Source: Pricia antarctica (GTDB lineage Bacteria > Bacteroidota > Bacteroidia > Flavobacteriales > Flavobacteriaceae). Taken from it: 64,000 bases of DNA. Made by a program: the position numbers and the translations under genes. The stretch is taken from contig DRGL01000036.1 in the NCBI GenBank assembly GCA_011050085.1, positions 1 through 64,000 of the forward strand, written 5' to 3'. The notes beneath the pieces were generated by a model that ran no database searches, was not told where the DNA came from, and saw only the letters and a list, made by a program, of their open reading frames with translations. Positions 60,858 to 64,000 of this stretch are shown piece after piece; positions within the stretch are counted from its first letter, which is position 1; each line of letters opens with the position of its first letter.

Positions 60858-61029
60858 GGAAATTGCATAGTAATAAATTTATTTCACCTTTTAGTTGAGA
60901 CACATTTGTTGAATAGTGTTAAACTTTTTTTTAAAAAGGTTAAACATTAATACGTTGTTCCTTATCTTTATAATGGGATTTTCAAAAATTGATAATCCTC
61001 TTAAATTTTTTAATCTTAATACAACGTTT

Positions 61030-62448
61030 ATGAAAATCTTGAATTTAAAGTTTTTATCGTTTTTAACATTGATGTGTATAATGATAGTTTCGTGCAACAA
61101 TGATGATGATAACGGTGTAACTCCGCCACCACCTACTACACCAGAGGCACCTACTCCAACTCCTGAGACGCCAGCAGAAGTAAATACTATTGCCGATGTA
61201 GCTATTGCCACTCCGGAATTATCAAGCTTAGTGGCTGCCTTACAAGAAGCGGATCTAGTTGGCACATTAGAAGGTGATGGACCTTTTACTGTTTTCGCAC
61301 CAACCAATGAGGCCTTTTCAGCATTTCTTACTGAAGGTGGATTTGCAACGGTTGCAGATGTTCCCGATGAAGTATTAAGTCAGGTATTGCTAAACCATGT
61401 AATTTCAGGTTCAGCACTAGAATCTTCTGCACTTACTACATCTTACGTGAGTTCTTCTTCTACAGCAGGAGTAGACGGCAAGGCGTTGAGTCTGTTTGTC
61501 GATATTTCCGATGGTGTAAAAATTAATGGTTCAACTGTAACCAGCGCAGATGTCGAGGCATCAAATGGTGTAGTTCATATTGTGGACCAAGTTATTGGTT
61601 TGCCGAATATTGTTGATCATGCCCTTAACAATCCTGCGCTTTCTGAATTAGTAGGCGCTCTAACCGCTGATGACAATACCACGTATACTGACTTATTGAG
61701 TTCTGAGGATATAGCTTTTACTGTTTTTGCACCGGTTAATGAAGCTTTCACTGCTTTTGAAAATCCTGATAATAACGATATCAATAACGTTTTAGCTAAT
61801 CATGTAATTTCTGGTGTTGCTTTTGCTGCTGGAGACTTGACTAATTCTTATTCAAATACTGCTGCTGTTAATGAAGATGGTGATGCTTTAAGTATCTATA
61901 TTAATACTGATGATGGTGTAACATTAAACGGCGAAAGCAGCGTAGCCATTGCTGACATTGTCGCCACTAATGGAATTATACATGCGGTAGATACGGTAAT
62001 TGATCTTCCGACTGTAGTTGACTTTGCTGTAGCCGATAGTGCAAATTTTTCTTCGCTCGTAGGAGCACTTACTGCTGAAGGTCAGCCTGATTTCGTTACT
62101 ACATTGAGTACGCCATGGGGAACCGATCCTGCTCCATTTACTGTATTTGCACCTGTTAATTCAGCTTTCGATGCTTTGGAGGCCACCCCCGAAGGTGATG
62201 CACTCACAGCGGTTCTTCAACATCATGTAATTGCTGGTGCGAATGTAGTGTCAGGTGATTTAGTGAACGGTCTTGCCGCTGCCACCTTAGAGGGTGATGA
62301 AATCACGTTCTCGACTTCAGGTGACACATTTACGATTACAGACGGCTCCGGTAATCCTGGAACAAATTTTGTTTTAGCTGATGTACAAGCCATAAATGGC
62401 GTCGTACACGCTATAGATACAGTTTTGATTCCAGATACAACTAACTAG
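61030..62448 (+). CDS. Fasciclin (FAS1) repeat lipoprotein
   Basis: 472 residues from the ATG at 61030, which begins a proper lipoprotein signal (lipobox MIVSC); the frame is open for 38 codons upstream without such a signal. A Thr/Pro-rich linker (PPPPTTPEAPTPTPETP) leads to three FAS1 domains, each with the FTVFAP[TV]N-x-AF motif and an ILxNHVI-type H box (LLNHVISG, LANHVISG, LQHHVIAG). FAS1 modules are adhesion domains of cell-surface proteins. The gene is followed by a palindromic terminator. Confidence 0.93.
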   Translation: MKILNLKFLSFLTLMCIMIVSCNNDDDNGVTPPPPTTPEAPTPTPETPAEVNTIADVAIATPELSSLVAALQEADLVGTLEGDGPFTVFAPTNEAFSAFLTEGGFATVADVPDEVLSQVLLNHVISGSALESSALTTSYVSSSSTAGVDGKALSLFVDISDGVKINGSTVTSADVEASNGVVHIVDQVIGLPNIVDHALNNPALSELVGALTADDNTTYTDLLSSEDIAFTVFAPVNEAFTAFENPDNNDINNVLANHVISGVAFAAGDLTNSYSNTAAVNEDGDALSIYINTDDGVTLNGESSVAIADIVATNGIIHAVDTVIDLPTVVDFAVADSANFSSLVGALTAEGQPDFVTTLSTPWGTDPAPFTVFAPVNSAFDALEATPEGDALTAVLQHHVIAGANVVSGDLVNGLAAATLEGDEITFSTSGDTFTITDGSGNPGTNFVLADVQAINGVVHAIDTVLIPDTTN

Positions 62449-62992: not shown

Positions 62993-63123
62993 CTTGACAT
63001 ACACTAAATCATTGTTTACAACTCGTTTTTTTTTCCATCCTAAATTATGTACATCTTTATAGTCCCAAATCTTACCAAACCAACCTAACTTCATGCTAGA
63101 AACCCTGTTCGCGAACAGGGTTT
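62993..63123 (+). ncRNA. Repeated leader-terminator module, copy 1 (candidate small RNA)
   Basis: 131 bp beginning CTTGACA, with an ACAACTCGT and T-run midway, then a 39-nt core (63052-63090) that is repeated at 63927-63965 with two mismatches, then a 24-base palindrome ending the module. No long coding sequence; a tiny ATG frame (MLETLFANRVF) crosses the hairpin. A short transcript or a leader with immediate termination is inferred; no family is recognised. Confidence 0.4.
63100..63123 (+). terminator. Palindromic terminator of repeat copy 1
   Basis: AAACCCTGTTCG / CGAACAGGGTTT followed by a T-run. Confidence 0.8.
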
Positions 63124-63126
63124 TTT

Positions 63127-63525
63127 AGTTTTTATGATTACTTAAATACCCTGTTTCAACTCTTATTACTAAAGTTCATCTTGTAATATTTTTACCTAAT
63201 GCCAACTCCCCAAATAATCGACATTTTAGTATACCTCGTTTATATTGTTTAATTTTTTTATTTAAATTTTAAACAAATATTTCGATAATATATCAACTAT
63301 TATCAATTCTCTATAGTACATGTGCAGCACATTACAGCTCCTAATCTACCAAAACCCTTAGTCTATGAATAACGGAGATTATGCTTAACTATAACTTACT
63401 AAGATTTCCTAGCTAGTCTAAATAGTTTGGTCAAAACTAGACTACCATCGATAATTTTAAAGGGGATGAAGAATTTGTTTTCCTTCATTTTTTTTCCAAT
63501 AGAATGTTGGACATGACGTATTTCT
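63127..63525. other. Non-coding AT-rich stretch with one nested hairpin
   Basis: No gene. A nested hairpin lies at 63414-63444: TAGTC...GACTA encloses TAGTTT...AAAACTA around a 4-base loop. Its role is unknown. Confidence 0.35.
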
Positions 63526-63804
63526 ATGGATAAAAAAACTTACAGAAAGGAAATTACCAATGCCTTCGCAAATTCTACTCTAAGTAAGGTTTAGGAATTC
63601 CTTTGTAAATGGGGATGCTCCAGAGTTGGGTTCCAGCATTATCTTAATCAATAATTGAGTCTGAAAATACAATACACAACATTTGTCGACCAAGAAGCAG
63701 TCGAAAATTTCGTAACCTTCCTAGGTTTTCAATTGACATACGCCCATACTCTAGAGGAGTATATTAATTCAAACGAAGAGCACGCTAATAAAATATCTAG
63801 GTAG
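63526..63804 (+). pseudogene. Possible decayed small gene
   Basis: From the ATG at 63526 (MDKKTYRKEITNAF) one frame gives ~93 codons interrupted by a TAG at 63592 and a TAA about 20 codons later, ending at TAG 63802. The pieces (FLCKWGCSRVGFQHYL; EAVENFVTFLGFQLTYAHTL; EYINSNEEHANKI) look protein-like, but I recognise no family. It could be a broken hypothetical gene or chance. Confidence 0.35.
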
Positions 63805-63867
63805 GTTTTTGGATTAGCTTTAATATTATTCGGTGAACTGAAAGCCATAAACAACAAAATTGAGGTG

Positions 63868-64000
63868 CTTGACACACAGGAATCAGCCCTAGACAACTCG
63901 TATTTTTTTCAATCCCCTGTTATCATCATCTTTACAGTCCCAAATCTTACCAAACCAATCTAACTAATGCTAAAAACCCTAACATCACTGTTAGGGTTTT
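63868..64000 (+). ncRNA. Repeated leader-terminator module, copy 2 (runs to window end)
   Basis: Same order as copy 1: CTTGACACACA, ACAACTCGT with a T-run, the 39-nt core at 63927-63965, ATGCTA, then a hairpin AAAACCCTAACA / TGTTAGGGTTTT (63973-64000). The hairpin arms differ in sequence from copy 1 while position and the AAACCCT...AGGGTTT frame are kept, so pairing looks preserved. Confidence 0.4.
63973..64000 (+). terminator. Terminator hairpin of repeat copy 2
   Basis: 12-bp arms AAAACCCTAACA / TGTTAGGGTTTT with loop TCAC; the T-run continues to the window edge. Confidence 0.75.

Follow-up and report, generated by a model that had tools for sequence, protein, structure and literature searches.

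Two modules of about 130 bp at the end of the window look like genes for a candidate small RNA, here called A, whose core is a near-complement of the core of a second family of putative small RNAs, here called S. We consider it probable, at roughly 65%, that A would be a trans-acting anti-sRNA of ~65 nt, a sponge for the tandem sibling S RNAs, which in turn would act on gldL. The argument for this reading is drawn from sequence comparison across the Flavobacteriaceae. The window is the whole 64,000-nt stretch of DNA analyzed (G000:C36:1-64000), within the 5.48-Mb genome of Pricia antarctica.

Two A modules at the end of the window

Re-reading of the sequence confirmed both modules (62993 to 63123 and 63868 to 64000), with the block order and hairpins that the original prediction had described. 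On the plus strand, upstream elements lead to a -7-like box, CATCTTTA, followed by CCCAAATCTTACCAAACCAAYCTAAC (beginning at 63064 in copy 1 and at 63939 in copy 2) and a terminator hairpin; AGTCCCAAATCTTACC starts at 63061 and 63936, respectively. The parts of the modules and their left neighbor are as follows.

61030 to 62448, + strand: fasciclin-domain gene, left neighbor of the A copies (PF02469; start codon inferred from sequence, the listed ORF opening at 60916)
62994 to 63026, + strand: A copy 1, conserved upstream promoter elements, distal TTGACATACA and proximal GTTTACAACT at -50 from CCC (relatives: TTAGCATACAAAAA at -68 and CTTGACAACT at -50, fixed distances)
63052 to 63059, + strand: A copy 1, -7-like box CATCTTTA (compare TAnnTTTG; CATnTT at -12 from CCC in 28 of 29 canonical-seed A copies)
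63064 to 63097, + strand: A copy 1, RNA 5' part, predicted unpaired, nearly complementary to the S core (duplex with S at -38.4 to -38.6 kcal/mol, lower than any of 200 shuffles)
63100 to 63126, + strand: A copy 1, terminator hairpin and T-run, 24-base palindrome (covariation, predicted fold)
63869 to 63901, + strand: A copy 2, conserved upstream promoter elements, distal TTGACACACA and proximal TAGACAACT (comparison with relatives)
63927 to 63934, + strand: A copy 2, -7-like box CATCTTTA (comparison with relatives)
63939 to 63972, + strand: A copy 2, RNA 5' part, predicted unpaired, nearly complementary to the S core (duplex with S at -35.5 to -35.7 kcal/mol)
63973 to 64000, + strand: A copy 2, terminator hairpin, its T-run ending just past the window (covariation, predicted fold)

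The cores are near-identical, as had been claimed, with two differences over CATCTTTA.AGTCCCAAATCTTACCAAACCAA.CTAAC. AGTCCCAAATCTTACCAAACCAA occurs twice in the window at up to three mismatches, for a chance expectation of 0.00 and a maximum of 0 in 100 shuffles. The hairpins are of unlike sequence and pair fully, also as described: copy 1 has a perfect 24-base palindrome (63100 to 63123), and copy 2 has 12-bp arms around a 4-base loop (63973 to 64000), with a T-run that extends beyond the window end. The CTTGACA with which the modules open is present, but it did not hold up as the conserved part of the promoter. Relatives mostly have TTAGCATACA(AAAA) there, and the conserved CTTGACAACT lies ~18–20 bases further in, where the window copies show GTTTACAACT (copy 1) and TAGACAACT (copy 2). 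Searching 1.2 Mb of the own genome for CTT(G/T)ACAACT gave five sites, and an A-like core follows none of them. The 740 bp between the A copies (63127 to 63866) are without a clear gene and possibly hold remnants of lost genes.

Conservation and class of the A family

A covariance model (E<=0.01) matches A in 61 of 299 sampled Flavobacteriaceae genomes and 45 of 203 genera, with strong matches (E below 1e-9) in 53 of the 299 genomes. In 25 of 29 canonical-seed copies, CTTGACAACT or a near form stands at -50 or -49 from CCC, and the A box, CATnTTT, deviates from TAnnTTTG. The suggestion of compensatory change in the hairpin was borne out: across 39 A sequences, in an alignment that had been fitted to the tested structure, both sides are altered at 11 of 12 pairs and 95.7% of cells are paired, beyond 500 of 500 shuffles and all slid controls. 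In the predicted fold of three different A sequences, the first ~34 nt are unpaired. A conserved small ORF in A or S was rejected by inspection, the ATG being lost in several A copies and S variants differing by a one-base deletion. A combines promoter-like boxes at a fixed distance with a covarying terminator and no conserved ORF, the features of an intergenic trans-acting sRNA with its own promoter and intrinsic terminator.

The neighborhoods of A were compared in the 27 retrieved loci that match the seed pattern, as distinct from variant-seed loci (six places are double, leaving ~21 distinct). Among these listed loci, yidC is a neighbor in 22, yidC together with a fasciclin gene in 21, and at least one of yidC, fasciclin, and mnmA in all 27. 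One locus (L214, positions 908-1635) carries four tandem A copies, at a spacing of ~200 bp, between fasciclin and yidC.

The original prediction had left open an unrecognized small RNA or an attenuator. The first part stands, given the 61 of 299 genomes, the covarying terminator, the fixed promoter spacing, and the lack of an Rfam match at gathering score in the loci scanned; the second fell. That A is the 5' leader or attenuator of a gene would suit a conserved leader-like segment followed by a terminator, but there is no sense gene directly downstream, the next gene, yidC, is convergent where present (22 of the 27 listed loci), and no conserved small ORF accompanies the segment, so that we regard a leader as scarcely credible. 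A transposon end or mobile repeat was likewise rejected. The core is not confined to such an end: A and S places are syntenic across relatives, and no transposase was recognized by eye among the ORFs listed around either own-genome locus. The exact A core was not found in viral contigs.

A weaker A-like class, A', was also seen (L237, L239, L240, and L242), with CCAAAATTAC/CCAAATTTTA..AAACCTACTT and a terminator-like hairpin; it occurs in three genomes, with two copies in one. Its members are possibly further anti-S RNAs.

With Rfam 15, no match at gathering score was found in the window or in seven further loci (L283, L281, L045, L058, L214, L196, and L240), and L030/L031 gave six matches up to E 1, all of them short of gathering scores. 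The Flavo-1 motif of Rfam, likewise a candidate RNA motif of Flavobacteriaceae, had been named for comparison; it gave no gathering-score match in the window and these seven loci, and none up to E 1 in L030/L031.

S units between purF and sodA

The strong matches to A copy 1 in the own genome are both window copies. Besides these, the search registered an array on contig C23 as four weak inverted matches within 900 bp (E 0.1 to 1.2). The C23 array consists of four tandem S units between purF and convergent sodA. Each unit runs from a TAnnTTTG box, through 5 to 6 bases, to CCATAGCATAAGTAGGTTAAGTT(C/T)ATGGTAAGATTTGGG, a GC-rich hairpin, and a T-run; a TAnnTTTG-like box is present in all four.

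S was matched by covariance model in 256 of 299 Flavobacteriaceae genomes and 175 of 203 genera. In an order-level sample of 118 genomes that included family members, S was found in 17 genomes of the own family (the own genome included), with one weak match outside it (E 0.004). By a stricter pattern, at least 108 of at least 120 stretches from named contigs carry S, and 106 of the 108 S loci listed have purF on the same strand, sodA on the opposite strand, or both no more than 2 kb away. The listed loci hold one unit in 43 cases and two to six in 65, cut loci included. A single 40-nt core is common to 178 of 279 distinct S units (one of the 279 being a backward-read A copy). The search pattern had fixed 20 core positions; the free ones (2-11 and 18-24) are 90–100% conserved, except position 23 (C 74%, T 25%). 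A strict or loose TAnnTTTG occurs in the 27 bases before the core, or at it, in 155 of the 279 units and is unmatched in 124. The terminator in the units shown is a hairpin of variable sequence with a T-run; with this and its promoter-like boxes S, too, has the make-up of an intergenic trans-acting sRNA. In loci with at least three units, the upstream consensus differs among first, middle, and last units, the last, beside sodA, being the most conserved; this suggests that the units may be separately controlled.

The predicted fold of two S sequences comprises a 5' hairpin with the loop GTAGG (GUAGG in RNA), an unpaired linker TAAGATTTGGGG, and the terminator. Covariation in the 5' hairpin is not distinguished from chance among 13 hand-picked variants: 92.3% of cells are paired and two pairs are changed on both sides, and 82-89 of 500 shuffles score equally high. 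Because the RNAalifold structure underlying covariance model R1 misplaces the S terminator, R1 works mainly by sequence.

Several single S loci deserve mention. A contig labeled Candidatus Rokubacteria carries a typical S unit (L134) and is probably a mis-binned Flavobacteriaceae contig. Two loci with S units (L165 and L170) have neither purF nor sodA within the 8-kb locus. In the own genome, an exact 14-base CCCAAATCTTACCA lies in an intergenic region of another contig (L410, C9:68393-68406); its opposite strand reads AAGTTATGGTAAGATTTGGGG and then a possible hairpin, and resembles a degenerate fifth S unit.

Complementarity between A and S

All 61 genomes with A are contained in the 256 with S. 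Each of the 53 genomes with strong A matches has three to seven S matches, and the eight with weak A matches have one to three, in co-occurrence counts that ignore phylogeny. The complementarity runs in blocks: CCCAAATCTTACC of A complements the 3' part of the S core, and the later AACCTAACTT.ATGCTA complements the 5' part. In the 39 copies of the A3 alignment (35 loci), the predicted A–S duplex ranges from -25.9 to -51.6 kcal/mol (median -37.1, median z -7.3), and for none of the 39 did any of 200 dinucleotide shuffles reach as low; the 29 canonical-seed copies have a median of -36.9 kcal/mol and a median z of -7.5. Exact CCCAAATCTTACC is found in 28 of the 39, and CCAAATCTTAT in seven of the other 11. 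In most of the 29 copies, nucleotides 18-42 of A pair with S no better than shuffled sequence when considered by themselves (median z -0.9), and the first block of A therefore carries most of the pairing signal. Exceptions are L097, L183, L196, L204, and L213 (z -3.1 to -4.4), with AACCTACTTA opposite the S loop. The conserved AAAC of A is not complementary to S. What would be expected of a sponge, extensive complementarity to siblings beyond chance and a target encoded by the same genome as a multi-copy sRNA family, is seen in 39 of 39 A3 copies and in the four S units here.

Part of the complementarity may have been inherited, if A arose from an S copy in inverted orientation. It is conceivable, though on balance unlikely, that A is an independent base-pairing sRNA with mRNA targets of its own, and that its match to S is a relic of such an inverted duplication of the S core. 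The two cores are alike in length and block order, and A has its own conserved promoter elements and stands as a four-fold tandem in one genome (L214). Against this, all 39 copies keep the complementarity although A and S have unrelated promoters and terminators, and BLAST of the own genome finds the A-pairing segment outside the S array only once exactly (14 bases, C9:68393-68406), at the intergenic, degenerate-S-like site rather than in an mRNA.

The occurrence of CCCAAATCTTACC in both orientations relative to the hairpin, in A and in S loci, would also be compatible with a DNA site at which a regulator binds in either orientation, with no pairing of RNAs. We hold this to be very improbable. 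In both families the conserved stretch runs from just after a promoter-like box to a terminator-like hairpin, as in transcripts; moreover, the S core is nearly invariant over ~40 nt, and gldL has short parts complementary to S.

gldL as a candidate target of S

The target scan of the own genome covered 904 ORFs in 1.2 Mb, in the region from -60 to +30. It recovered 115 occurrences of 8-mers complementary to S where 59 were expected from permuted words, with 65 and 63 in the reversed and sense controls; some of the excess is due to ATG-containing words. The most prominent of these 8-mers is CCCAAATC (8 vs. 1.0), and gldL and gldM are both among the matches. Since gldL was a selected match, it was tested in other genomes. 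The ten closest of 30 gldL loci have CCAAATCTT or CCAAAT(A/T)CTT upstream, at about -38 to -52. In other genera, the region upstream of gldL has TTAACCTACTTA instead, which matches S perfectly over 12 bp; it lies at -44 to -51 and was seen in nine of the first 50 genomes.

The wider test took the best ungapped S helix in the region from -75 to +6 for 74 genomes with a gldL match, one start each. With three S variants allowed per region, 15 genomes chosen as S-bearing (partly for a variant S), and S-less genomes that are rather distant (gldL 45–68% identical), a helix of -13.5 kcal/mol or lower was found upstream of gldL in 43 of 62 S-bearing genomes vs. 0 of 12 S-less ones (Fisher 6e-6), and one of -16 or lower in 25 of 62 vs. 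0 of 12 (p 0.004). At these two cut-offs, reversed S gave 6 and 1 of the 62 S-bearing genomes and 1 of the 12 S-less genomes at both. Other genes reached them in 10 and 2 of 112 cases (sodA), 13 and 1 of 65 (purF), and 8 and 1 of 60 (pfkB), and the own-genome genes, by the same measure, in 154 and 34 of 904. Some gldL helices near -14 are AACTTAACTTA-like and less specific, and a site at -13.5 was not found upstream of gldL in 19 of the 62 S-bearing genomes. When gldL regions were compared with dinucleotide shuffles, 15 of the first 30 reached p 0.05 (median p 0.055). On this evidence, S probably pairs with the gldL mRNA of the type IX secretion/gliding motor.

A broader set of targets is not apparent. 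Taken together, the 904 own-genome genes do not carry more strong S helices than controls (112 at -13.5 or lower vs. 77 to 116 for reversed or shuffled S). In four genomes of the genus, the seed AACCTACTTA occurs 25, 12, 10, and 13 times (G000, G001, G002, and G003) vs. 20, 28, 20, and 17 for the reversed pattern, and no large regulon by that 10-mer is therefore indicated. Among the genes behind AACCTACTTA in the genus (30 of 60 sites with loci), one ORF pair recurs (L253/L258), its site lying 71-74 nt before a possibly internal ATG.

Variation between genera gives a hint, from one position, that S and gldL may co-vary. In genus g133, S reads TAGATTTGG (G297 and G392) and gldL reads CAAATCTA, or CCAAATCTA in G139; among genomes close to that of the window, the forms are TAAGATTTGG in S and CCAAATCTT in gldL. 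Pairing S with gldL in matched forms gives -15.5 and -13.7, and in swapped forms -12.8. Other genera with TAGATTTGG have the loop site at gldL instead. Separately, the gap between gldL and gldM holds CCCCAAATC or ACCCAAATC in nine of ten loci (L345-L354, not L353), mostly flanked by TAATTAG-like and CTAATTA arms in a hairpin-loop-like display.

Pairing is symmetrical, and the roles could in principle be reversed, with A regulating mRNAs and the S array serving as a multi-copy sponge of A. This, too, appears very unlikely: S occurs in many more genomes than A (256 vs. 61 of 299), and the gldL sites complement S, not A.

A proposed circuit and its relation to known sponges

With A as a sponge of S, each A gene would be transcribed from its own promoter into an RNA with an unstructured 5' half and an intrinsic terminator. 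S would fold at its 5' end into the hairpin with loop GUAGG, leaving the linker UAAGAUUUGGGG single-stranded ahead of the terminator. The unpaired 5' end of A, CCCAAAUCUUACC, would contact this linker as a toehold, and the next block of A would then open the S hairpin. The stretches of S that bind mRNAs would thereby be masked; their main target would lie upstream of gldL, with gldM as a further one in the vicinity of the window's clade. Most likely, translation of gldL would be repressed or otherwise set by S, which A, under its separate promoter, would titrate; that the sign is repression by S and relief by A is a guess. The first block of A, CCCAAATCTT, also appears upstream of gldL in the own genome (ACCCAAATCTTTAG), and A therefore appears to mimic a target besides being antisense to S. 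More tentatively, and at somewhat less than even odds in our estimation, the circuit may be family-wide: tandem, separately promoted S siblings would set the gliding/T9SS motor via gldL (and gldM), and part of the family would have added A, a mimic of the gldL/gldM sites and a near-full complement of the S regulatory domain. Canonical Hfq is often absent in Bacteroidota.

Sponges of sibling sRNAs are a known kind of RNA (CrfA/Sis, QrrX/Qrr). According to PMC12559287, CrfA of Caulobacter crescentus sequesters the four sibling sRNAs SisA-D by base pairing and masks their mRNA site, with a TonB-receptor mRNA among the targets. Like A in the proposed role, CrfA is a single RNA directed by base pairing against a conserved family of siblings; unlike A, it belongs to another phylum and was found with Hfq (PMC12559287). 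In the present case, the S units stand in tandem, and almost all of the 40-nt S core is covered by complementarity to A. QrrX, mentioned there as a sponge of the Qrr sRNAs of Vibrio, is similarly directed against a sibling family and is likewise from another phylum (PMC12559287). The proposed A–S pair differs from the known sponges in its phylum, tandem syntenic array, near full-length complement, more than one sponge copy, and proposed T9SS target.

Among multi-copy sRNAs, the FopS/GibS family of Bacteroides thetaiotaomicron resembles S in belonging to the same phylum and in its conserved 5' seed, which pairs near the start codons of outer-membrane genes (PMC11697453). It differs in its 14 members, in its protein antagonist, RbpB, and in its SusC targets, as opposed to gldL; the word "sponge" occurs 0 times in that paper (PMC11697453). 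The Rfp RNAs of Flavobacterium psychrophilum are, like S, sRNAs of a member of the Flavobacteriaceae. Rfp18 affects the mRNA levels of two metalloproteases and pairs via its third stem-loop, unlike S with its two predicted hairpins, and a sigma-ECF-type promoter class is common to T9SS genes and one sRNA, Rfp11 (PMC9723704). Among the open-licence PubMed Central papers listed, none appeared to describe either family, sRNA control of gldL or of T9SS/gliding genes, or a Bacteroidota RNA sponge.

S, with its nearly invariant core, is matched in 256 of 299 sampled genomes of the family, yet falls below Rfam thresholds where scanned. As a defined pair, A and S lend themselves to testing by exact base changes, and an RNA sponge in Bacteroidota would extend a mechanism described in other phyla. 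If the family-wide circuit is true, surface secretion and motility in these bacteria could be released on a separate signal.
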